Assembly: GCA_024998645.1 (NCBI GenBank)
Contig: JACOEJ010000009.1
Location: 1-60,393, forward strand
Source: Nitrospira sp.
GTDB lineage: Bacteria; Nitrospirota; Nitrospiria; Nitrospirales; Nitrospiraceae
Direction: 5' to 3'
Length of the DNA: 60,393 bases
Program-made: the position numbers and the translations under genes
Shown: positions 1-14,346 of the stretch, one piece after another
How positions within the stretch are numbered: the stretch's first letter is position 1
How the letters are laid out: each line of letters starts with the position of its first letter
The notes under the pieces: generated by a model
The model's input: only the letters and a program-made list of their open reading frames with translations
Told to the model about the DNA's origin: nothing
Databases searched by the model: none

Positions 1-415
1 CGGCGAGCACATTGGTGCCCAGCTCGGGATCCGTCTCAAAGACATGTCGATCGACGGCCCGCTGCCCTGTTCGAATGGTCTGCTCTAACTTTCCCCAGTT
101 CTCCCATTCCGCATCGTGCAGCAGGAGCAAGTGCCCGATATATTGAGGGGAATGCTTGACGAGATGAGTGGCCGCCGCCGCGGAATTGCCGTAGGATTCG
201 CTCTCTTTATTCAGCAACCGCATCGCAACCAAGGCGTTTAAAAGGAGCGTCAGAGTCGGCTCATGGGCGCCGAGACGGCTGGCGACCTCCTGAGCCGTTT
301 TCCGTTTTCCGTCGAGAGCGGAAAAGAGGTCCAGGCGCACGCCCGTAAGGAGAATTTTCGTCTCCCAGTAGTACCCGAGTTGAAAGATTTCGGCGAGCGA
401 GAGTTCTCGTGACAC
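1..415 (-). CDS. Partial O-methyltransferase family 2-like protein (N-terminal dimerisation/winged-helix part); C-terminus outside window
   Basis: Hand translation of minus strand from GTG at ~415: VSRELSLAEIFQLGYYWETKILLTGVRLDLFSALDGKRKTAQEVASRLGAHEPTLTLLLNALVAMRLLNKE..., typical of family 2 methyltransferase N-termini; open to window edge. Confidence 0.7.
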   Translation of the reverse strand, partial: MSRELSLAEIFQLGYYWETKILLTGVRLDLFSALDGKRKTAQEVASRLGAHEPTLTLLLNALVAMRLLNKESESYGNSAAAATHLVKHSPQYIGHLLLLHDAEWENWGKLEQTIRTGQRAVDRHVFETDPELGTNVLA

Positions 416-515: not shown

Positions 516-551
516 CACAAAGGGCAGCGGATTGCTCCGCTGCCCTTTGTG
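516..551 (-). terminator. Intrinsic-terminator-like hairpin downstream of the 584-1381 gene
   Basis: Perfect 16-bp inverted repeat CACAAAGGGCAGCGGA-TTGC-TCCGCTGCCCTTTGTG just 3' of the minus-strand stop. Confidence 0.7.
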
Positions 552-583
552 GCGGGGTGATCCCGCTAAAGCTGGAAACCGGC

Positions 584-1381
584 TTACTTGATTTCAGCCT
601 TGAGGTCAGCCTTCCCGCCTTCGGGAACATCCACCTCGAACTCCACCTTCTTACCCTTGGCGGCAAACGGGTGCCAGGCCACCACTTTGTGCTTGCCGGC
701 CGGGACATCCTTGAGCTCGAACGACCCATCGTCCTTCACCACGGCGAAATGTGCATTCGTCACCGGGAGGAAGAACGACTGCATGAACTCATGCTGGTCG
801 CACTGTAAACGATAGAAGCCATCCTTCTCAGCACCGCCGCGGAAGGTCACTGGCTTCTCGAGCTTGTCGCCCTTCTTGGCCAAACCGATATTGAAACCGG
901 TTGCGGAGCTCGAACCCTTCACCACGAAGCTATGGGGATTGTGAAGCACACCCTGGACCGACTTGGGATCGTCCGGATCGGCATCGGTGTTTTCAACCTT
1001 GAAGTTCTTGTTATTCACAACCACGCCCGCGAAGGGAAGAAACTCGCAGAACGCCGCGACAACTTCGGTGCCCGCGTACCCATCCATGAACGCCTTGTCT
1101 TCGATATCGACCACGGCAACGACCGCACCCTTCAGACCGCCATCCTTACCCACTTCGATGGTCTTCAAGAAGCGCTTATCGCCATCCATCAAGCTCTTGT
1201 TCGGGTTCTTCGGGCAGAACTTGGGGTTCGGGAACTTGGCGAAGGAGAATTCCTTCTGCTCAGCTTTCCCGGCATAGGTCACTTTCCCGGCAACGGTTCC
1301 GCCGGCATTGGCCAAGAGCGGGGCTGCCACCAACGCCACCGCGGCCGCACCAAACACAACTGATAACGCACCCTTCTTCAT
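584..1381 (-). CDS. Secreted cupredoxin-like protein with C-terminal carboxypeptidase-regulatory-like domain
   Basis: Signal peptide MKKGALSVVFGAAAVALVAAPLLANA; HNPHSF and LQCDQHEFM (C-x2-H-x2-M type-1 Cu pattern) followed by DGSFELKDVPAGKHKVVAWHP. Confidence 0.75.
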   Translation of the reverse strand: MKKGALSVVFGAAAVALVAAPLLANAGGTVAGKVTYAGKAEQKEFSFAKFPNPKFCPKNPNKSLMDGDKRFLKTIEVGKDGGLKGAVVAVVDIEDKAFMDGYAGTEVVAAFCEFLPFAGVVVNNKNFKVENTDADPDDPKSVQGVLHNPHSFVVKGSSSATGFNIGLAKKGDKLEKPVTFRGGAEKDGFYRLQCDQHEFMQSFFLPVTNAHFAVVKDDGSFELKDVPAGKHKVVAWHPFAAKGKKVEFEVDVPEGGKADLKAEIK

Positions 1382-1539
1382 GAGACTGCCTCCTTGTGAT
1401 GAACTAACTACCCTGATTTGTCACTTGTGGTTCCCTTCCGTCAAACCACCGGCCTGGTGAGAGGAATGGAAGGGACAACTTCCTCTCTGGTGTACTCGAT
1501 CGCTATCACGCTGGCGAGGCTGATCGTGGACCGAGTATA

Positions 1540-1567
1540 TATATAAAAGTCTACCGTACCCTGTCAA
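1540..1567 (-). promoter_or_regulatory. Putative sigma70-type promoter for the 584-1381 gene
   Basis: Minus strand TTGACA - 16 nt - TATATA, upstream of the start at 1381. Confidence 0.5.
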
Positions 1568-1600
1568 TCTGAAACAAGAGGGCCAACTCATCTGCCCCCA

Positions 1601-2968
1601 CTATGGTTTCGATTGGAGCAGATGCAAAAGCCCTCCTGCCGCCGTCGCCCGAACTGCTTCATTGGAATCGTGCATCCCCTCCATCATCAAGGGAATTACC
1701 TCACGATCTCCAATGTGGCCCAGGGACCGAAGAGCAACAATCTTGGGACCGGGCAGTGAATCCGCCGTGAGACCACTCAAAAATACGACTGCGTCCTTGG
1801 CATTCGCCTTGGTCGCCTTTCCGAGCGCAAACGCAATCGAGGCGCGAGAAGCCGTATCGCTTTGCTGCGCCAGCGCTCGGGCCGTCTCAGCCACCAGCTC
1901 AAACGATTGGCCGAGCTGGAGCAGGGATGCTACCGCCGCCGCCCGTACCGTCACCTGTCCATCCCCTAGCAATTGCTTGATAGCTGGTACAGATTCAACG
2001 GTGCCCAACTCGGCCAGGCTCGATACCGCCGACTCTCGTACGGCCGGGATAGGATCTTTTAATAACAGCTCGATCTTCTCGCGAGCCTCTTTCCGTCCGA
2101 GTTGCCCCAACCCTCTCGCCGCAGTCCCTCGCACGGAAGGCTGTGCATAGGTCAAGAGCTCCATCATGAGAGGCGCGCCCCGCTGATCCTTCAGATCGGC
2201 GATCGCCCGCAGGGCATCGGTCCGATCATCCGGATTGGCTGCATCGGCGATCTTCCGCAATTCATCCCAGGCCTCTTTCTTCCCCAGCCGGATGAGCGCC
2301 GCATACGCGGCAATCCGTACTGGCGAGAGTTCGTCTTTCGTCGCAGCCTCGATAAGGGGCAGCAAAGAAGAATCCCCGGAACGTCCAAGCACTTTGACCA
2401 CACGTGCCTTCACCAGCCCCGCCTGATCCTCAATCGCCCCGCGTAACTTCTTCGACTTCCGGCCGGCTTCCGAGCGACCCAGCCCTTCGACCGCTAATAC
2501 GCGCACCGGCCCGGACCCATCGCTCAATCCATCCTCGAACAGGGGCACCGCCTCATGGGAGTCGATTTCCTTCAATGCCGTGTAGGCGGCCCCACGCATT
2601 TGCTCGCGCATATCCTTCACGAGCACCACAATCAAACCCAGCGCCACCTCACGAAGCACCGGTTCATCGTCGCGTTTCAGTGACTGGGCCAGCAGATCGT
2701 ACTCATCCAACGCTTCTTTCGGCTTGCCCAGATTGATCAGGGACCGGATCTTGAGCCGCCTGACATCGGGAGCAGCAGTTTTGTCCTTATCGAGCTTCGC
2801 CAGTTCATCGAGCACCTGCTGATAGGCTTTCTTCTCAAAAGCCGTCTGGGCTTCTTTGGGAACGGCCGACGCCCCGGCCGTCAGCACAGACGGATCGAGC
2901 CATGCAAGCGCGCACAACAATCCTGCGACTGCCACAACACCCTGTTTGCGAACCATTTGCGTCATCAA
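1601..2968 (-). CDS. Secreted HEAT-repeat protein
   Basis: N-terminal signal peptide, then repeated AAxALGxLG/VRxAAxxxLxxLG HEAT units through the C-terminus. Confidence 0.8.
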   Translation of the reverse strand: MMTQMVRKQGVVAVAGLLCALAWLDPSVLTAGASAVPKEAQTAFEKKAYQQVLDELAKLDKDKTAAPDVRRLKIRSLINLGKPKEALDEYDLLAQSLKRDDEPVLREVALGLIVVLVKDMREQMRGAAYTALKEIDSHEAVPLFEDGLSDGSGPVRVLAVEGLGRSEAGRKSKKLRGAIEDQAGLVKARVVKVLGRSGDSSLLPLIEAATKDELSPVRIAAYAALIRLGKKEAWDELRKIADAANPDDRTDALRAIADLKDQRGAPLMMELLTYAQPSVRGTAARGLGQLGRKEAREKIELLLKDPIPAVRESAVSSLAELGTVESVPAIKQLLGDGQVTVRAAAVASLLQLGQSFELVAETARALAQQSDTASRASIAFALGKATKANAKDAVVFLSGLTADSLPGPKIVALRSLGHIGDREVIPLMMEGMHDSNEAVRATAAGGLLHLLQSKP

Positions 2969-2985
2969 AGTTCCTTGTCGACCCG

Positions 2986-3630
2986 CTACCCCTGCACTCT
3001 TGGACCTGCGGGACCTGCCCGTCTTTTATACCCGGGGGGCTCATCAAAATAGTAGTCCGGCTGGGGAGAGAGCCGGATCCGTTCGTACTCCACGGACCAG
3101 TCTCGATCGCGGCTCACCAGTTTCAACACGATCCCGGCTTCCACATCAACCCATTCAAAGAACCGTTCAACCCGGCCATGGCGATCCGTCTGCACCTCGA
3201 ACAACTGCGCGGGCCGGCCGACCGCCGTCGCATCGCCGATCAAGACCCGTTCTTTTTCGCCGGGCAATGCGGGTCGAACCGGCAACACATCGTCCACATC
3301 CACCGGCGTCACCAGAAGCTCCTTCCGCTGTGCGAGAAGATACCAGGTTTCAGCTTTATCCAAGCGAATAATCTCAATCGCGGCATACCCGTAGTCGGTC
3401 TTCAGCGCATACTTATACTCCAAACGAATCCGGTCACCTTTCGCAAACACCTGGGCCTGATGTTGCCGGCCTTCAACCTGCTTGATGAGTGTCCCGGAAA
3501 ATTCGACGACCGGTGCCGCCGACTCACTGCCTCGGGCTGAGTCGACGGCAATGCCTGACAGGACCGAGAGCACGAGACATACCGACCCGACTCGCGCCCT
3601 CATACGAGGAGAGACTGAAGATCCCATCAA
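2986..3630 (-). CDS. Secreted protein, LolA/outer-membrane-lipoprotein-sorting-like fold (tentative)
   Basis: Signal peptide; beta-rich pattern VEFSGTLIKQVEG...DRIRLEYKY...IIRLDKAETWYLL... Confidence 0.5.
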   Translation of the reverse strand: MMGSSVSPRMRARVGSVCLVLSVLSGIAVDSARGSESAAPVVEFSGTLIKQVEGRQHQAQVFAKGDRIRLEYKYALKTDYGYAAIEIIRLDKAETWYLLAQRKELLVTPVDVDDVLPVRPALPGEKERVLIGDATAVGRPAQLFEVQTDRHGRVERFFEWVDVEAGIVLKLVSRDRDWSVEYERIRLSPQPDYYFDEPPGYKRRAGPAGPRVQG

Positions 3631-4619
3631 TGCTGATGTTCCACAAACGGCTGGATGTCAATCGAGTAACCCAGAGACTCCGGGCCAAAACGGGGATTGT
3701 CCATCACCTTGTAGGCGGACCGATTTCCTTTGGGAGCCTGCAGCGAGAGCTGTTCCTTCAACGTGCCGTCTGCCTGAACCGTGACCATCTTCGTCAGGCC
3801 GGGACCGGTCTGTGGGTGCCACACTACCAACTGATAGGTTCCCGGTGGAATATTGTCGATCTTGAAAGCCCCCGTACCATCGGTCAGCGCATAGTAGGGG
3901 TTGTTGACCGCCATCGCCCAACTTTCCATGTACGCATGGAAGCCGCACTGCATATAAAAGGTCCGGCGGCCCTTGTTCAGATAAACCGGTCCGACCAGCG
4001 ACTTGCCCGGCGCGTGATTGTGGATGGCATGGATGTCGCCGCGGTGGTGCTGATGATTCATGACCAGCGGAGTGTTGAATAATGTCCTGGCGCCGGCTTC
4101 CGGAGACGTTTCATATCCCTGAATATCATGCATCACCGGATCCATGTTGATGACTTCCACGGCGTGACCGTTCCGCACGATCGTCATGAACGGTTGAAAC
4201 ATACAATCCCGCGCTTCGATCAAAGGAACCGACGTTTCAAACGGCTTACCCGCCTCCACACCTTCGAGCAGCACAATCGCGTCCTTCAGTCCGGCGTCCG
4301 GGCTCACAACAAAATCGCGCAACAACCTCCAACCCCGGCCGTTTGAAATTCGTCCGCAGTAAGCCGGGTCCGGGAACGTAATGAGATTGAATCCCTTAGG
4401 CTCCGGGATACCGCCATCTAGACGCACGACACCTTCAATCGACCCGCCATGTGGCACATCAATCACATCATAGGCAGAGGCTGCCCCTGCACCCATCGCC
4501 ATGACCAGCAACGAGATCGCCGCCATCGCCCTAGCACCCGCCCGCTTCAGTCCTGCATGACTATTCACAGTAGATCCCTCCATGCCGAAGCCTATAGTCC
4601 AGATGCGCCATCGTATCAA
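3627..4619 (-). CDS. Secreted cupredoxin-like protein with carboxypeptidase-regulatory-like domain, paralogous in architecture to 584-1381
   Basis: MDPVMHDIQGYE, then YMQCGFHAYMESW (C-x2-H-x2-M), then DGTGAFKIDNIPPGTYQLVVWHPQTG. Confidence 0.75.
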   Translation of the reverse strand: MIRWRIWTIGFGMEGSTVNSHAGLKRAGARAMAAISLLVMAMGAGAASAYDVIDVPHGGSIEGVVRLDGGIPEPKGFNLITFPDPAYCGRISNGRGWRLLRDFVVSPDAGLKDAIVLLEGVEAGKPFETSVPLIEARDCMFQPFMTIVRNGHAVEVINMDPVMHDIQGYETSPEAGARTLFNTPLVMNHQHHRGDIHAIHNHAPGKSLVGPVYLNKGRRTFYMQCGFHAYMESWAMAVNNPYYALTDGTGAFKIDNIPPGTYQLVVWHPQTGPGLTKMVTVQADGTLKEQLSLQAPKGNRSAYKVMDNPRFGPESLGYSIDIQPFVEHQH

Positions 4620-4637
4620 ATGGCCGCTAGAAAGAAA

Positions 4638-4665
4638 AAGGGGGAAGCCTCGTGGCTTCCCCCTT
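4638..4665 (-). terminator. Intrinsic terminator for the multicopper oxidase gene
   Basis: Perfect 12-bp stem AAGGGGGAAGCC/GGCTTCCCCCTT with 4-nt loop, followed on the minus strand by TTTCTTTC. Confidence 0.8.
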
Positions 4666-4708
4666 CCATCTCATCCCTCATTCCTACTGGGCCGTAGGAG
4701 AAAAGATG

Positions 4709-7700
4709 TTACTTCGCTGCAACCGGGATCACCTGCATCGGCTGTCCAACCGATGCACTCTTCATCCCGGCGCCAGTCCCGTGCAGCGGCAACAACCGCT
4801 GATCACCGGACGGCAACACCCGCACATAGCCCCACTGGCCTGACTGTGAGTACGGCAACCGCTGGTTGCTGTACACATAGTCGCCTGGCTGACGGTACGG
4901 ACCGCCCGCCGAGGGGATAAAGGCGTCAATCGTCTCGGAACCGGAGAACTCAACGACACTGATCTGGTCAGCGCCGCGCATGAACGGCTCGATCGGCCAT
5001 TCGTGCTTCTCCACGCTGAACATCCCGTTCTGTTCGTTGCTCACACCCAGGATGTGAATCCGGACAGGATCGCCCGCATGCGCCTCGATCAGAGGCGTTG
5101 CCGGATCCTCAGGCTTGTCGGCCTTGCAAGGCTGGAACACCTTGCCCAACGAACAACCCTGCTCTTCCCGGAACTTGTAGGGTTCAGACCGATAGTTCAC
5201 ACCGGTCAAACCGGCCACATTTTGCACATAGGGCATGAAACTCGTGCCGATGATGTTGTCTTCGTCCTGGAAGAACAACGCCACGTCACGATAGTTCGGC
5301 CGATTCTCCATCCCGGGCATCGAGTGATCCAGGATCACGTCGGCCGCCCAGGCATTCTTGTTCGTAAGATCGGCACCGGTCTTCGGATCACGATACTTCG
5401 CACCCTTCGGGCCCACTACAATGGCGCCGAACAGCCCGTTGCGCGGATTGGTCATCACATTGCCCCAATCCCAGACCAACGAGGTCGTCTCTCCATTGAA
5501 AGGATCCGCATAGTACGTATAGGTCCGCTCGGCGCCCGGAGCGATCGTCTGATCGCCGGGGTTATTGCCGACGTTGGCGCCCATCGATTCCTTGGGGTCA
5601 AACGCCAACCCGATGGCCGAGAAGGACGCCTTGCTCTCCTTCATCTTGTTCTTCAGATTGACTTTTACACAATCCCCCATGTTGACACGAAGAGTCAGCG
5701 GCATCGGCTGCGCGCCGCTCGCCACCTTGGCGGTATCTTCCTCCAGGGCATAGATCTTCGCTTCGGGATTGGTCATGAGGATCTTCCGCTCGAAGTCCAC
5801 TTCGATAGTCTCGGGGGCCTTCGCGTTGAACTTCATGGACGGGAAATCCAAAGCCACCACGTTGAACGACTTCACCGGAGCATCGGCCGGACAGACCGGC
5901 AATGACTTCGGGATTTCGCCCTTGCTGGAGAAGCCCGACGTGAGCTTCTTCAGGTCGGCCTGTTCCTTGTCGTAGACACGAATGATACCCCAGCCGCCTT
6001 CGGAGAACTTTGAAGACCGGCCGTTGAAGTGAATGTAGTCGCCAGCCTGGAAACGCGATCCACCGGCTTGCGGTACTACGAGGTCGTAGCGCTCGGCAAT
6101 CCCGATATGAATCGAATTCTTCCGGTTGGCATCACCCGCATAGCGCTCCGTCAAGAACGTATGGCCGGACAAGGTCCAAACCATCGACTCGTTCATGAGG
6201 GTATGGAGGAGACGGAACACCATGGTGTCTCCCACATAAGCACGCAGAGTCGGCGTATAGGGATCGCCGTGGATGCTGCTGTTGAAAATCTGCGACGAAT
6301 CCGGATTGGTCGCCAACCGCTGGGCGATGGGACCGGCCCGGAAGTTCAGACCGCTGCCGGTCGTATGTGTGCCGCCGTTCAAGAACGGCATCGGCGTCAT
6401 GTACAACTTGTCCGGCATCATGAACGACACGGTCTTCCCCGCTTCGAGCGCCACTTCGATCGGCTGCCCGGGAGGATTGCCAGCGGTCACAATGTTGACG
6501 GTATGCGGCACGGTGTCGTGCACTTGCACCATCAACTCGCGGAAGCTGTTGTTCACGCCATGACCCACCGGCTCAACGGTCCGGATGTCGGCGATGGGGC
6601 CGCTCCGGATGTCCTTACCGGTCTTCGGATCATGATAGGTTGAACCGACCGGCTCGGCGATGAAGGTGCCGAACCCGCCGTGCGGCCAGGTGGTCGCACC
6701 GAACGCATGGTCGTGCCAGAACACGGTCCCCACGTCCGCATCAACCCAGAACCGCTGCCGAACGAATTCCACCGTAATGATGTCGTTCGCCGGATGGTCG
6801 TTCTTCAAACCCCTCGCTAAGACAATCGTATTCCCGTTGATCGCCTTGATGCGGGAGATTTCGTTACCCTTCACGTTGTCGGCACCGACGAGGAGCAAGG
6901 TGCCCACGTGGTACTGCTTCGCGTTCTTCACCGTGATACTGCTGGCGCCCTTCTTGGCTGCCGCCGTCAACGCGGTGTTCATCGGGGCCGGGAGGCCCTT
7001 CTTGGTCTTTTTATCCAGCATCGTGAACGGGCGAACCGACTGCTCATACGAGAAGCCGGTGATCACACCGTCCGAAGCCTGGTTGTCGAACTGCAGGAAA
7101 TGCCAGTGCGTGTTGATCTTCGACGACTGGAAGTTCGTGTAGTCGTCGTCGTCCCACTCGCTGGTCAGCGTCCAGTCGATGCAATCATAGATATTGCCGC
7201 GAACCACCAACGGGTACTTCAGATCGTCGTTGGCGCGGATCGCCGCTTCCTCTTCATGGAGCACATAGATCAAGCCGTTCGGATCGATCACCGGCGGCTC
7301 TTTCCCCTGTGCCTTCGCGATCTTGATCGGCATCTTCACGAAGTGGACGTTGTAGCTCTTCCGTCCGGCATTCTCCGGGCAGAGGCTCCAGACACCGTTC
7401 TCACCGGGAAGTGCCTGATCGACGCTCTCTTCGCCATTGGCATCCCGGCGGATCATCTCCAGCCAGGGTGCGCCGACGTGGTTCGGCGAGAACATCACGC
7501 GCCGGCCGAAGTGCGGCGTGAGATGCGGCCAAGCGACCTTACCGGTCAGCGGCTCGAACATGATCGGGTGCCGCTTGCCAGGATGCGTGGACTTGTACTT
7601 GGGATTATCGACTTCGCTTTCCTTTTCGCTCATCGCCACGTTGCCGTTCCAGGTCCAATCCAGGACGGTGGCATCGTATGACTGGGTCTGGCCCTTTTCG

Positions 7701-9550
7701 TCATCCTTGTGGCCAGGCTTGCCCATCGTGGGCATCTGCATGGCGACCCAATCCTTAATGTTGATGACGGCCGGGTTGCCTTTCCAGTTGCTCTTGCCCT
7801 TATCGGTAATCGTGAACTGCTTACCGAACCAGTCTACGGTCTGACCGACCAGCTTGTCGGACGCGATCGGGGTCTTGATGCGGCCCTTGCGATCCGGCAA
7901 CTCACGAAGGTCCGGCATCACGTCGTTCCGCAGATCACCCTGTTGAATCGTGTTGTACACGCGCCAGTAGCCCCACATGCCTGCGACATAGTGGTGCGCC
8001 ACATGGCAATGGAAGAGGAAGTCGCCGGCCAGCTGCTGGCAGAGACCGGAACCGCACTCGGTTTCCAGATCGAGGGCTTCAGACGGCCCGATAACTTCCA
8101 CGTCGACACGGTCGGTCTTGGCCCGGATGACCGGATACTTGACCGGACCGTTGGTGCTGGTCGCCCAGAGGTTCATGTCATCGATCGCCCGCGGGCTGCG
8201 CGGCCACCGGATGGTGCCTCCGTGCGGATGGTGACTGTGGAACACTTCCGATCCACCGTGCACCAAGCGGAACTTCGCCGGATCACCGATGTAGGAACGG
8301 GGAATCGTCGGCGACGGATCGCCGAACGTATAGGAGCTGTAGCCCATCGACTCGTCTTCAAAACCGAAATACTCGTGCTGCACATGCATGTTGTTGATAC
8401 CGAACGGCTCGCTGCGATAGTTGATCGCGCGGCCACCCGGACGATACGCGTCCGTCAACGGATCGCGCTGCGGCAGGAAGTCGCCCTTCTTATTCAACGG
8501 GCGGAAGGCTTCGTCGCCGACTTCATGGTAGTAGAGCACGAACTCACGGAAGTCCGGACCCGTGCCATTCTTGATCATGACCTGCCAGCCGCTGCTGGCC
8601 GGAGTCGCGTCACCGCTGCCGAGCGCTTCCCAATAGGAAGATCCGCGGGGCTCCACGACGAAGGAGCCGAACATGCCCATCACAGTCAGCTCACGATCGT
8701 TGCTGAACGTATGGAACTGGCGGACACCTTCCTGGGTGTTCGGGTGGATATACCACTCGTAATCACCGCTCTTATCCTTGGCAACAATCGTATCCGAGTT
8801 GGTCGTGGTGGCCGCGGCGCCCGTTGCGCTCACCACCATGGAGGATCCATGGATGTGGAGGCTGACTTCTTCGCCGCCTTCCAGCTTGTTGCTCAACTTG
8901 ACCTTGACGCAATCGCCCTGGTTGGCGCGGATGGTCAACGGTTGAATCCACTGGGCCTGCACGCCGGGAATGATCGCTCCGGGATCGAAGCCTTCCTTGT
9001 CGCGCGCGGCTTTATTCGTCGCTTCTTCTGCGCGGACCTTGTCGAGATTCTCATCCAGCACGTACATGTAGCCGGGATAAAAATCGAGCCACTGATTCAG
9101 CGTAATCTCGACGTTGATCGCGGACACGTTGTACTGCTTCACCGGGGCTGTCGCGGGGCACTTGCCGCCGCCCACCATCGCCACCGGCTCAATGCGGGGA
9201 TCGGACACCAACAACATGTCCTGCCCCCCCGCACCGTATTGGTGCATCATGGACTGGGTGTTGTACATCCCGGTGTTGACGCCCTGGACCTGCGGATCAT
9301 GGGTCATATGCTCCATGATGCGCTGATGCTGCTGCTCGACCATCGCCGACCGCTCGCCCCTTCCGGACATGGCGTCTTCGACGATCGTCTGACCTTTGAG
9401 CTGCTCCGCCCAGGCGGGGAGCTGGTGATTCATCGCCACATGGGACGATGCGCTCTCAGCGGATGCGAGCGGAGCCCATAAGAGAGCGACCGCCGCCATC
9501 GCACCGAGCATGCGGGTAGGCACACAAACCCGTGAAGTGTGAAAGAACAT
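4709..9550 (-). CDS. Giant secreted multicopper oxidase with multiple cupredoxin domains (~1,613 aa)
   Basis: Motifs HSHHPH, HCHVAHHYVAGM, THWHF and WHDHAFG; start placed at ATG 9550 (MFFHTSRVCVPTRMLGAMAAVALLWAPLASA) with GGAGG upstream rather than the longer ORF from 9790. Confidence 0.9.
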   Translation of the reverse strand: MFFHTSRVCVPTRMLGAMAAVALLWAPLASAESASSHVAMNHQLPAWAEQLKGQTIVEDAMSGRGERSAMVEQQHQRIMEHMTHDPQVQGVNTGMYNTQSMMHQYGAGGQDMLLVSDPRIEPVAMVGGGKCPATAPVKQYNVSAINVEITLNQWLDFYPGYMYVLDENLDKVRAEEATNKAARDKEGFDPGAIIPGVQAQWIQPLTIRANQGDCVKVKLSNKLEGGEEVSLHIHGSSMVVSATGAAATTTNSDTIVAKDKSGDYEWYIHPNTQEGVRQFHTFSNDRELTVMGMFGSFVVEPRGSSYWEALGSGDATPASSGWQVMIKNGTGPDFREFVLYYHEVGDEAFRPLNKKGDFLPQRDPLTDAYRPGGRAINYRSEPFGINNMHVQHEYFGFEDESMGYSSYTFGDPSPTIPRSYIGDPAKFRLVHGGSEVFHSHHPHGGTIRWPRSPRAIDDMNLWATSTNGPVKYPVIRAKTDRVDVEVIGPSEALDLETECGSGLCQQLAGDFLFHCHVAHHYVAGMWGYWRVYNTIQQGDLRNDVMPDLRELPDRKGRIKTPIASDKLVGQTVDWFGKQFTITDKGKSNWKGNPAVINIKDWVAMQMPTMGKPGHKDDEKGQTQSYDATVLDWTWNGNVAMSEKESEVDNPKYKSTHPGKRHPIMFEPLTGKVAWPHLTPHFGRRVMFSPNHVGAPWLEMIRRDANGEESVDQALPGENGVWSLCPENAGRKSYNVHFVKMPIKIAKAQGKEPPVIDPNGLIYVLHEEEAAIRANDDLKYPLVVRGNIYDCIDWTLTSEWDDDDYTNFQSSKINTHWHFLQFDNQASDGVITGFSYEQSVRPFTMLDKKTKKGLPAPMNTALTAAAKKGASSITVKNAKQYHVGTLLLVGADNVKGNEISRIKAINGNTIVLARGLKNDHPANDIITVEFVRQRFWVDADVGTVFWHDHAFGATTWPHGGFGTFIAEPVGSTYHDPKTGKDIRSGPIADIRTVEPVGHGVNNSFRELMVQVHDTVPHTVNIVTAGNPPGQPIEVALEAGKTVSFMMPDKLYMTPMPFLNGGTHTTGSGLNFRAGPIAQRLATNPDSSQIFNSSIHGDPYTPTLRAYVGDTMVFRLLHTLMNESMVWTLSGHTFLTERYAGDANRKNSIHIGIAERYDLVVPQAGGSRFQAGDYIHFNGRSSKFSEGGWGIIRVYDKEQADLKKLTSGFSSKGEIPKSLPVCPADAPVKSFNVVALDFPSMKFNAKAPETIEVDFERKILMTNPEAKIYALEEDTAKVASGAQPMPLTLRVNMGDCVKVNLKNKMKESKASFSAIGLAFDPKESMGANVGNNPGDQTIAPGAERTYTYYADPFNGETTSLVWDWGNVMTNPRNGLFGAIVVGPKGAKYRDPKTGADLTNKNAWAADVILDHSMPGMENRPNYRDVALFFQDEDNIIGTSFMPYVQNVAGLTGVNYRSEPYKFREEQGCSLGKVFQPCKADKPEDPATPLIEAHAGDPVRIHILGVSNEQNGMFSVEKHEWPIEPFMRGADQISVVEFSGSETIDAFIPSAGGPYRQPGDYVYSNQRLPYSQSGQWGYVRVLPSGDQRLLPLHGTGAGMKSASVGQPMQVIPVAAK

Positions 9551-9629
9551 GGACCGGCCTCCTTGGTATGATGAACGACACAAACCCGAAAACATGAAAC
9601 GAAATGCAAATGACGCTGTGTATATAATC

Positions 9630-9656
9630 CCTTCGTGACCTGGAACGACACGAAGG
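9630..9656. promoter_or_regulatory. Inverted repeat in the leader of the multicopper oxidase gene (operator or RNA hairpin candidate)
   Basis: CCTTCGTG-11 nt-CACGAAGG, perfect 8-bp arms, between the predicted promoter and the start codon. Confidence 0.4.
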
Positions 9657-9682
9657 CATCGGAGCCTTTCAAAAGAGGCAGA

Positions 9683-9711
9683 ACGATACTGAACTCCCGA
9701 TTCTCTGTCAA
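9683..9711 (-). promoter_or_regulatory. Putative sigma70-type promoter of the multicopper oxidase gene
   Basis: Minus strand TTGACA - 17 nt - TATCGT. Confidence 0.5.
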
Positions 9712-9943: not shown

Positions 9944-11023
9944 ATGACCCCTCAGCCGCAGATGCTTCACATTCTTATCATTGGGGTCAGCCTTGCGCTC
10001 TTTGGCCTCGATCTTCTACTGCCGTTGGGCGTCGCGAACGCCGTGCTCTACGCAGGCGTGGTATTTCTTGCCGCACTCAGTCCATCACTCCGGCTTCCCG
10101 TACTGACCGCCGCAGGATGCTCGCTTCTCACCATTATCGGCGCCTGGTTCGGCCCATCAATTCCCGGCGTTCCCCTCTGGGTGGCCCTGTCGAACCGGAC
10201 ACTCAGCCTGGTCACGATCTGGGCGCCGATCCTGTTCCTTGCCCAACGCCGACAGACGGAAACGCTGCTCCGGCGCGTCAATGAATCATTGGAAACCCGG
10301 GTGCAGATCCGTACGGCTGAAATTGCGGCGAAAGAACTGGCGCTGCGCCAGACTCAGGAGGAACTGCGCGCCCTGACCAGCCGCCTGCTGACCGTGCAGG
10401 ACGAAGAGCGGCGGCGTATTGCGCACGACTTACATGACGACATCAATCAGCGGTTAGCGATGCTGGCTCTCGGTCTTCGGACGCTGGAACAGCCCGAACA
10501 GGCTCTGCCTGAATCGGTTCGGGCCACCCTGGCTCAAAGCCAGCAGGACATCCTCCTTCTCTCAGAAGACGTCCGACGCATGGCCTATCGCTTTCATCCC
10601 TCGATCCTTGATGACCTTGGTCTGGACGCCGCGCTCAAGCGCTTGCTCGATGATTTTACCCATCGAACAAGAATCAAAACATTGCTCGTCAATCCTCCAT
10701 GCAGCACATCGCCGTCCAAAGCGATTGCCACAACCGTCTACCGAATCGTCCAGGAATGCCTCTCGAACATCACCCGTCACGCCAAGGCGACGCGCGTGGA
10801 AGTGGAACTGTTCAGCAGCGAGCGTGAATTGGACCTCACTGTCCGAGACAACGGCGTCGGGTTCGAGATCGATGCCGCCCAACACGAACGACAGGGCCTC
10901 GGCCTCTTCAACTTACGTGAGCGGGCACTGGCCTTTTGCGGAACGTCTCGCGTACAGTCTCAGCCAGGGCACGGCACGGAGATCCACGTGCAACTCCCGT
11001 TGTCCGAGCCCCCCTCCCCATGA
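9944..11023 (+). CDS. NarX/DesK-type membrane sensor histidine kinase (HisKA_3 + HATPase_c)
   Basis: Several N-terminal TM segments; DEERRRIAHDLHDDINQRLAML and DNGVGF...GLGLFNLRERA. Confidence 0.9.
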   Translation: MTPQPQMLHILIIGVSLALFGLDLLLPLGVANAVLYAGVVFLAALSPSLRLPVLTAAGCSLLTIIGAWFGPSIPGVPLWVALSNRTLSLVTIWAPILFLAQRRQTETLLRRVNESLETRVQIRTAEIAAKELALRQTQEELRALTSRLLTVQDEERRRIAHDLHDDINQRLAMLALGLRTLEQPEQALPESVRATLAQSQQDILLLSEDVRRMAYRFHPSILDDLGLDAALKRLLDDFTHRTRIKTLLVNPPCSTSPSKAIATTVYRIVQECLSNITRHAKATRVEVELFSSERELDLTVRDNGVGFEIDAAQHERQGLGLFNLRERALAFCGTSRVQSQPGHGTEIHVQLPLSEPPSP

Positions 11024-11655
11024 AGAAACCGACTGTCATTCTCGCCGACGACCACACCCTGGTACTCGAAGGCTTTCGTCGCCTGCTCGAAACTCACTGC
11101 GAACTCCTGGCGACTGTCGGAGATGGACAAGCGCTCCTGCAGGCGGTGGCCCAGCATCGTCCCGATATCGTCATCCTGGACATTTCTATGCCCGTGATGA
11201 ACGGCATTGAAGCGGCGCGCGCGCTGAAATCCAAGTACCCTGCACTGAAGCTGGTGTTTGTGACGATGCATGCGGATCCCGCGTACATTCGCGCGGCCTT
11301 TCAGGCCGGGGCGTCCGGCTATATCCTCAAGCAGTCTCTGGGCGACGAGTTACCCCAGGCCCTTCACACCGTCCTGCAGGGACAGATCTACGTGACCCCG
11401 CTGATCGCCAAAGATGTGGTCGATGGGATGCTGCACAGCGACACACGGCCGCTCGTTGAACTCACCGCTCGACAACAGGAAGTCCTCCAGCTCATTGTTG
11501 ATGGGCTTTCAGCGAAAGATATCGCCGCGAAACTGAGCATCTCGCATCGAACCGTCGAGTTTCACAAAGCCCAGCTGATGCAACAACTGGATCTCCATAG
11601 CACCGTTGAACTGATTAAATTTGCCCTGACGAACGGGCTGGTTCGCCTGACGTAG
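11020..11655 (+). CDS. NarL/LuxR-family response regulator
   Basis: MKKPTVILADDHTLVLEGF...DIVILDISMP...LTARQQEVLQLIVDGLSAKDIAAKLSISHRTVEFHKAQ; ATGA overlap with kinase stop. Confidence 0.92.
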   Translation: MKKPTVILADDHTLVLEGFRRLLETHCELLATVGDGQALLQAVAQHRPDIVILDISMPVMNGIEAARALKSKYPALKLVFVTMHADPAYIRAAFQAGASGYILKQSLGDELPQALHTVLQGQIYVTPLIAKDVVDGMLHSDTRPLVELTARQQEVLQLIVDGLSAKDIAAKLSISHRTVEFHKAQLMQQLDLHSTVELIKFALTNGLVRLT

Positions 11656-12449: not shown

Positions 12450-12522
12450 ATCTCAATCTCGGCGTCCAGCACGATCCCCCGCGTTTTTTCCTTCCTCCTA
12501 CCGGTTGTGCGATAATGCGGGC

Positions 12523-14346
12523 ATGCTTTGGAAACGTTGGCTGGTCGGCGATCCGCTGAAGACTGCACAAGCAGCGCACGAACGGCTCTCGAAAACTCTC
12601 GCACTGGCCGTCTTTTCATCGGACGCCCTCTCGTCCGTAGCTTATGCGACCGAAGAGATTCTCCTCGTCTTAGTGCCGGCGAGCATCGCCCTGGCCCATC
12701 TTTCCATCCCCATCAGTTTCATGATCGTGCTCCTGCTCGCCATCCTGACGCTGTCGTACTCACAGATCATCTTCGAGTATCCCGGAGGCGGAGGGGCCTA
12801 TATCGTCTCAAAATCCAATCTGGGCGAGTGGCCCGGATTGACTGCAGCCGCTTCGCTCATGATCGATTACGTCCTGACCGTCGCCGTCAGCGTGGCGGCA
12901 GGCATCGCGGCTATCACCTCGGCATTCCCCAGTCTGTTCCCCCATCGTACAGCGCTAGGCATCTTTGCCATTGCGGTTGTCCTGCTGGTGAATCTTCGCG
13001 GTGTGCGGGAGTCTGGAAAGTTCTTTGCAGTTCCCACGTATCTGTTTATTGGAACACTCCTGCTCATGCTGGGCATGGGCGGGGCCCGACTCCTTTCTGG
13101 GCACCTCGCACCGGTGACACCTCCGGACCTTGCCGGCCAAGCAGCCATGGAATCGTTGTCGATTTTCCTGCTTCTTCGCGCCTTCTCTTCCGGATGTACA
13201 GCGCTCACCGGAGTCGAAGTGATTTCCAACGGCGTCTCAGCCTTCCGTGCTCCAGAGCCGAAGAATGCCGCCATCACAATGGTCACAATGGCCGTCGTAC
13301 TAGGTACGCTGTTCATGGGAATCAGCACATTGGCCTATCACCTCGGCGTCATCCCGAAAGAAGACGAGACCGTGATCTCGCAGGTGGCTCGCGCCATCTT
13401 CGGCGAAGGCGGCTTCTACTATTTAGTTCAAGCCACCACGATGATGATTTTAATTCTGGCCGCAAACAGCGCCTTTGCAGGATTTCCCCGTCTCGCCTCG
13501 TTGCTCGCACGCGACAGCTTCATGCCACACCAAATGGCCGTGATGGGCGACCGCCTGGTCTTTTCAAATGGGGTCATCATCCTCGGCGTCCTCTCCTGCC
13601 TTTTAATTGCCCTGTTTCAAGGCGACACCCACGCCTTGATTCCGCTATACGCCGTCGGCGTGTTCCTCTCCTTTACTCTGTCACAAGCCGGGATGGTCCG
13701 ACGCTGGCTCATCAAGCGGGGGCCCCATTGGAAAATGAAGCTCACCATCAATGGCGTCGGCGCCGTCACCACCGCCATCGCCACGCTCATCATTGCCAGC
13801 ACCAAGTTCTCGCATGGCGCCTGGATCGTGATCGTGCTGATCCCACTCTTCATCTTGATGTTCCGCGGCATTCGCTCGCACTACAAAGCCGTGTCCGAAC
13901 AGATCACCCTAGACCGCCGGGGAGCCCGGCCACCCATGCCGCGGCGCAATATCGTGGTCCTGCCAATTAGCGGCGTGAACCGTGCCGTCGTACGCGCCGT
14001 CGACTATGCGCGCAGCCGTCCAGGAGAAGTACGTGCCGTGCTCGTCGACCTCGACCCCGAAGAAACCGCCAAGATCGAAATCCAGTGGGCCCAATGGGGC
14101 TGCGGCGTGCATCTCATTGCCCTCCCCTCACCGTACCGCTCCGTTCTTGGATCTCTGCTCGACTACATTGAGGAAATACTGCAAAAGGAACCGGATACCT
14201 GGGTTACTGTCGTGATCCCTGAAATTCTTCCGGCTCGCTGGTGGCAGAACATCCTGCACAATCAGCGTGCCTTGATGCTCAAGGCGGCGCTGCTGTTTAA
14301 GGATCGCGTCGTCCTGACGGATGTACCCTTCCACCTCACGAGGTAA
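12523..14346 (+). CDS. APC-family amino acid permease
   Basis: MLWKRWLVGDPLKTAQAAHERLSKTLALAVFSSDALSSVAYATEEIL, ~12 TM segments, C-terminal cytosolic domain. Confidence 0.9.
   Translation: MLWKRWLVGDPLKTAQAAHERLSKTLALAVFSSDALSSVAYATEEILLVLVPASIALAHLSIPISFMIVLLLAILTLSYSQIIFEYPGGGGAYIVSKSNLGEWPGLTAAASLMIDYVLTVAVSVAAGIAAITSAFPSLFPHRTALGIFAIAVVLLVNLRGVRESGKFFAVPTYLFIGTLLLMLGMGGARLLSGHLAPVTPPDLAGQAAMESLSIFLLLRAFSSGCTALTGVEVISNGVSAFRAPEPKNAAITMVTMAVVLGTLFMGISTLAYHLGVIPKEDETVISQVARAIFGEGGFYYLVQATTMMILILAANSAFAGFPRLASLLARDSFMPHQMAVMGDRLVFSNGVIILGVLSCLLIALFQGDTHALIPLYAVGVFLSFTLSQAGMVRRWLIKRGPHWKMKLTINGVGAVTTAIATLIIASTKFSHGAWIVIVLIPLFILMFRGIRSHYKAVSEQITLDRRGARPPMPRRNIVVLPISGVNRAVVRAVDYARSRPGEVRAVLVDLDPEETAKIEIQWAQWGCGVHLIALPSPYRSVLGSLLDYIEEILQKEPDTWVTVVIPEILPARWWQNILHNQRALMLKAALLFKDRVVLTDVPFHLTR

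Follow-up and report, generated by a model that had tools for sequence, protein, structure and literature searches.

A giant MnxG-like multicopper oxidase and two cupredoxin-type proteins at one Nitrospira locus: two candidate periplasmic copper modules

Bacteria of the genus Nitrospira are the chief nitrite oxidisers in many settings, and their unusual bd-like terminal oxidases receive electrons through a respiratory chain that is poorly understood. We analysed a 60,393-nucleotide stretch of Nitrospira sp. DNA (contig JACOEJ010000009.1 of assembly GCA_024998645.1; hereafter, the window), in which five consecutive minus-strand genes had been proposed to form an extracytoplasmic copper redox module. 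The assembly comprises 3.2 Mb, and its nearest public relatives are Nitrospira genomes. The five genes encode a giant multicopper oxidase (MCO), a cupredoxin-type protein (CupB), a LolA-like protein, a HEAT-repeat protein, and a second cupredoxin-type protein (CupA). Judged by gene linkage in relatives, MCO, CupB, the LolA-like protein, and the HEAT protein constitute one predicted module, and CupA belongs to another, that of the bd-like oxidases and alt-NxrC.

Genes and transcription signals of the locus

All five open reading frames (ORFs) of the original prediction are present on the minus strand, and the N-termini of all five proteins, judged by eye, resemble signal peptides as had been claimed. 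The features, in the direction of transcription, are as follows.

9683..9711, minus strand: sigma-70-like promoter site (TTGACA-17-TATCGT) upstream of the MCO gene; the count of such sites in the region is not above chance
4709..9550, minus strand: giant multicopper oxidase, MnxG-like; 1613 amino acids from the ATG at 9550, ORF open to 9790
4636..4667, minus strand: intrinsic terminator 3′ of the MCO gene, kept in relatives
3627..4583, minus strand: CupB, putative secreted type-1 cupredoxin with a carboxypeptidase-regulatory-like domain and a conserved WH; ORF open to 4619
2986..3630, minus strand: predicted LolA/RseB-fold periplasmic protein; overlaps the end of CupB
1601..2968, minus strand: HEAT-repeat protein, putatively secreted
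584..1381, minus strand: CupA, a CupB homologue (CDQHEFM); conserved first gene of the bd-like oxidase/alt-NxrC module
516..551, minus strand: intrinsic terminator 3′ of CupA, kept in relatives
1..415, minus strand: 5′ part of an O-methyltransferase gene that runs off the contig; first gene of the following part of the bd-like module (assigned by eye from L250:14696-15679)

The limits first assigned to the region fall on a strong terminator (516) and on the promoter-like site (9711). Of 91 distinct relatives, 82 have a counterpart of the terminator-like hairpin after the MCO gene (1 in shuffles), and all 32 distinct relatives have one after the CupA gene (2 in shuffles). Hairpins are few after CupB (8 of 39 relatives), the LolA-like gene (8 of 43), and the HEAT gene (3 of 54), with 4, 3, and 2 in the respective shuffles, and these three genes overlap or almost touch. 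Together, the hairpin distribution and the gene overlaps suggest that MCO is transcribed alone and that CupB, LolA-like, and HEAT form a unit possibly running on into CupA, whose terminator would stand ahead of the bd-like cassette.

Copper ligands and predicted folds of the encoded proteins

The ATG at 9550 is the likely start of the MCO and gives a typical signal peptide. The protein carries Cu-oxidase domains (Pfam), and its only strong solved relative is MnxG (PDB 9bxa, E 1e-80). In the numbering of the 1693-amino-acid ORF, the type-1 (T1) copper ligands are H518, C595, H600, and M605, and the trinuclear ligands are H521, H523, H594, H596, H895, H897, H1026, and H1028; they lie in the motifs HxxHxH (518, 521, 523), HCHxxxHxxxxM (594, 595, 596, 600, 605), HxH (895, 897), and HxH (1026, 1028). 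All ten catalytic copper ligands are conserved in at least 99% of 128 homologues, and distant homologues, among them those of Streptomyces, Priestia, and haloarchaea, align at the ligand residues too. The sole exception seen is an axial Met replaced by Phe in a Rubrobacter relative. Because all catalytic copper ligands are kept, the MCO is predicted to be active in O2 reduction. It is present in essentially all genomes of the class Nitrospiria that were sampled and is rare outside the class.

Several further observations concern MCO relatives and neighbours. The PDB chain 9bxa_A has Ala at the second T1 His of the other aligned relatives (HCHLYPAF vs HCHLYPHF in Priestia) and is perhaps an engineered mutant. 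Actinobacterial relatives of the giant MCO on plasmids (L256, L257), annotated as hypothetical, lie near copper genes of the CopC/YcnI type. N. moscoviensis (G198:C1, about 4.26-4.28 Mb, L113) and another genome (G191, L230) each have nxrB genes with a second MCO paralogue no more than about 10 kb away, so that MCO paralogues tied to nitrite oxidoreductase (NXR) genes exist apart from the MCO of the window. A 54%-identity paralogue (L202-L205, L236) has its own MCO-LolA-Cup order, a second pairing of LolA-fold, Cup, and MCO genes. Divergent to the MCO gene, the window carries a histidine kinase and a LuxR-type response regulator (9944-11655), an arrangement found in close relatives only; elsewhere, the conserved divergent neighbour is an amino-acid permease (window 12505-14346).

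The main rival explanation of the locus is Mn(II) oxidation. It holds that the MCO is a periplasmic oxidase of Mn(II) or another metal, like MnxG, that yields Mn(III) for protection against reactive oxygen species (ROS) or as a side reaction, with CupB as an electron acceptor or incidental. Besides being the only strong solved relative, MnxG is also the best NCBIfam match of the MCO; Lücker 2013 (PMC3578206) proposed that the Nitrospina/Nitrospira MCO serves in a defence against ROS based on Mn(III); and two novel MCOs are found in each of the Manganitrophaceae (PMC9040806). However, the MCO reaches only 134 bits against the curated MnxG family NF041487, for which the cut-off is 3100. Furthermore, no MnxE/F homologue was found near the MCO in a short, weak test that compared the ORFs at the MnxE/F position of Priestia with the window, while Bacillus requires all of MnxEFG (PMC5622069). 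The near-universal presence of the MCO in the Nitrospiria sampled, including lineages without a clear NxrB match, also speaks against this role. We regard Mn(II) oxidation as possible but doubtful.

CupB has the ligand set of a type-1 cupredoxin. Residues H164, C225, H228, and M231 are invariant in 139 of 139 homologues and show the amicyanin spacing (C225-x2-H228-x2-M231), and the AlphaFold model of the protein (predicted local distance difference test, pLDDT, 92) matches purple cupredoxin, plastocyanin, and amicyanin. Two further Cys residues (88, 139) are likewise invariant, a Trp-His is nearly so, and the carboxypeptidase-regulatory-like domain was matched in 50 of 50 aligned CupB members. 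In CupA, C194 and M200 are invariant and H197 occurs in 97% of 33 homologues; LQCDQHEFMQ is invariant in 18 aligned sequences. The two proteins are homologous (E 8e-44 by hhalign profile comparison), and CupA has the type-1 ligand set by that homology. Thus, the build that had been described as shared by them, a C-x2-H-x2-M pattern joined to a carboxypeptidase-regulatory-like domain, holds with its ligands conserved, and the copper pattern is complete and well above chance expectation. We infer that CupB and CupA are type-1 blue-copper electron carriers, which would load copper and transfer electrons.

The description of this architecture as unusual did not hold, as CupB-type relatives with about 30% identity occur on rhizobial plasmids beside a cbb3-type oxidase. 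Those proteins (L254, L255) are annotated "carboxypeptidase regulatory-like" and adjoin genes for Sco, a metallophosphoesterase, and the oxidase. A cupredoxin inserted into a split carboxypeptidase-regulatory domain was also considered; it is not claimed, because a spliced construct of the N- and C-terminal parts gave no longer Pfam match.

The second rival explanation casts CupB and CupA as copper chaperones or storage proteins that load the MCO and the oxidase, with the LolA-like and HEAT proteins as assembly factors. The Cup genes do adjoin copper enzymes, Sco beside the rhizobial relatives is an assembly factor, and the CopC/YcnI-type genes near the actinobacterial MCO relatives fit the same idea. 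But the CupB homologues without exception keep all four mononuclear T1 ligands (His, Cys, His, Met) at the spacing of amicyanin, which is typical of electron carriers, not chaperones, and we consider the chaperone role unlikely.

The HEAT and LolA-like partners named originally were both borne out. The fourth gene has strong HEAT repeats (Pfam). Pfam gave no convincing match for the LolA-like protein itself, and the LolA family profile did not recognise it; its LolA-type fold is that of a predicted AlphaFold model (pLDDT 91), for which Foldseek matched ependymin, RseB/MucB, and LolA structures.

Gene linkage and the two proposed modules

The best match per genome was tabulated by hand for 54 order-level genomes. 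Within a set of 80 related contigs, most Nitrospira contigs of sufficient length, and the sister family too, show one gene order: MCO, one or two CupB-type genes, LolA-like, HEAT, CupA. Three lines of evidence tie the first four genes together. First, of 108 MCOs, 84 are followed within 2.5 kb by a same-strand Cup gene, vs 7 with one upstream. Second, of the 43 genomes with both, 42 have CupB no farther than 7.6 kb from the MCO (the exception has them on different contigs), and HEAT is within 2.3 kb of CupB in 46 of 46. Third, distances among MCOs and among their adjacent Cup proteins correlate (Mantel r 0.76; null maximum 0.20), a value of the kind that species relatedness inflates, even though the set includes paralogous MCOs.

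CupA follows a different partner. Of 54 genomes, 52 have CupA and a bd-like oxidase gene on one contig, and each of these 52 places the two within 8.1 kb (about 4-8 kb) of each other; the remaining two have them on separate contigs. G147 and G081 are complete genomes in a single contig; in both, MCO, CupB, LolA, and HEAT stand together, and the bd-like genes with CupA are found 1.2-1.4 Mb off. Seven genomes (G027, G043, G105, G135, G151, G193, and G197) are without orthologues of the module-1 MCO, CupB, LolA, and HEAT, and CupA is kept in all seven. In three others (G070, G097, and G177), CupB and HEAT, with a LolA orthologue in two of the three, lie near a different MCO paralogue. The conserved-neighbourhood check proposed with the original prediction therefore gave a divided answer: linkage of MCO, CupB, LolA-like, and HEAT is kept across Nitrospirales, and CupA travels with the bd-like/alt-NxrC cluster. 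Likewise, the copper redox module stands around the giant MCO with its co-inherited adjacent Cup protein, but not with CupA as an MCO partner. A single functional system of all five genes, in which CupA would serve the MCO too, is improbable: the genes adjoin in the window, 34 of 54 genomes have CupA and CupB no more than 10 kb apart, and some 54%-type MCOs adjoin CupA (L265, L266), but CupA persists where the module-1 MCO is absent and is always with the bd-like cassette where contigs let linkage be seen, and its grouping with the MCO was rejected on this linkage.

Beyond the O-methyltransferase gene, inside which the contig of the window ends, the CupA cluster was read from relatives. Downstream of CupA are the O-methyltransferase, DUF420, a PCP_red-domain protein, an unassigned membrane-type protein, a bd-like oxidase, DUF3047, and two FGE-sulfatase-like proteins, and then a second bd-like oxidase, diheme and monoheme cytochromes, and alt-NxrC, which has an ethylbenzene-dehydrogenase-type domain and two hemes. 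In these relatives, CupA is linked to the bd-like oxidase, the mono- and diheme cytochromes, and alt-NxrC alike. The N. moscoviensis CupA cluster matches that of alt_nxrC_2 (NITMOv2_3640), the match resting on its genes and rough position rather than on a locus tag. The order CupA, FGE-like pair, bd-like, diheme, monoheme, alt-NxrC also occurs in a class-level genome (L273, in G131) whose only NarH/NxrB-type match is weak; the cluster may therefore not be specific to nitrite oxidation.

The cluster had been described earlier, by Lücker 2013 (PMC3578206) and Mundinger 2019 (PMC6606698). The former lists among its genes an MnxG-like MCO and two cupredoxin-like proteins besides a bd-like oxidase, so the first suggestion of an undescribed system did not hold; the same text reports that the bd-like oxidases are without quinol-binding residues and proposes copper carriers for them. 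According to the latter, bd-like_3, alt_NxrC_2, and the cytochrome genes of the N. moscoviensis cluster are among the 40 most transcribed. No expression data for MCO, CupA, or CupB were found in the main text of the literature searched.

The reading we prefer is that of two neighbouring periplasmic copper modules, each with a dedicated carrier: CupB for the MCO and CupA for the bd-like/alt-NxrC complex. Two carrier pairs are the most economical reading, and we hold it with moderate confidence. The sequence comparisons above establish which genes are present and absent together, how they are linked, how far ligands and terminators are conserved, and the predicted folds. Also in its favour are the rhizobial CupB-type genes beside Sco and a cbb3-type oxidase and the lack of quinol-binding residues in the bd-like oxidases. 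In the first module, the MnxG-superfamily MCO would reduce O2, and its T1 copper would exchange electrons with CupB as the blue-copper carrier. The direction is most likely from CupB to the MCO, this direction and the physiological substrate both being a matter of inference; the LolA-fold and HEAT proteins may aid assembly or placement. In the second module, the bd-like/alt-NxrC respiratory complex would have CupA as its copper electron carrier.

Several points weigh against this picture. The modules are adjacent in most Nitrospira, and cross-talk is therefore possible. A terminator follows CupA, which may not share a transcript with the bd-like genes. A LolA orthologue is missing in several genomes that hold MCO, CupB, and HEAT, and the reduced genome G161 keeps MCO, LolA, and HEAT without an adjacent CupB; therefore, neither the LolA-like protein nor CupB seems indispensable to the MCO. 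MnxG itself oxidises Mn without a cupredoxin, and by analogy CupB might be a copper donor.

The two-module reading can be extended, tentatively and with a fairly low probability, to a partly copper-based respiratory chain in Nitrospiria. CupA would be the periplasmic carrier between nitrite oxidoreductase/alt-NxrC and the bd-like oxidases that lack a quinol site, and CupB and the MCO would form a parallel, copper-only periplasmic branch reducing O2. The locus thus offers two small secreted putative copper proteins, each linked to a different candidate O2-reducing or electron-transfer complex, and because linkage ties each to its own complex, the question of the electron route is open to direct biochemical test. 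The MnxG-like oxidase appears as a Nitrospiria-wide feature with its own partner set, not an isolated curiosity.

Comparison with known systems

Compared to the NXR-associated cluster of Nitrospina, Nitrospira, and Kuenenia (PMC3578206, Fig. 6; PMC6606698), CupA and its downstream genes show the same content: two bd-like oxidases, di- and monoheme cytochromes, and alt-NxrC. The available text of those accounts does not describe a CupB-LolA-HEAT operon, nor does it separate the MCO and CupA modules.

Compared to MnxG, the Mn oxidase of Bacillus, and related six-domain-type MCOs, the MCO of the window has the same permuted order of copper motifs, all ten ligands, and homology over most of its length. 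Unlike MnxG, it is 1613 amino acids long vs about 1230, has no visible MnxE/F, and is paired with a cupredoxin.

The LolA-like protein resembles the LolA/RseB family in predicted fold (TM-score about 0.55-0.61) and differs from it in lacking a Pfam LolA match and in identity (<20%). CupB differs from amicyanin and plastocyanin in its C-terminal carboxypeptidase-regulatory-like domain with the Trp-His and Cys pair and in its low identity to the solved matches (8-18%), and it shares with them the predicted fold and the set of His and Cys-x2-His-x2-Met.

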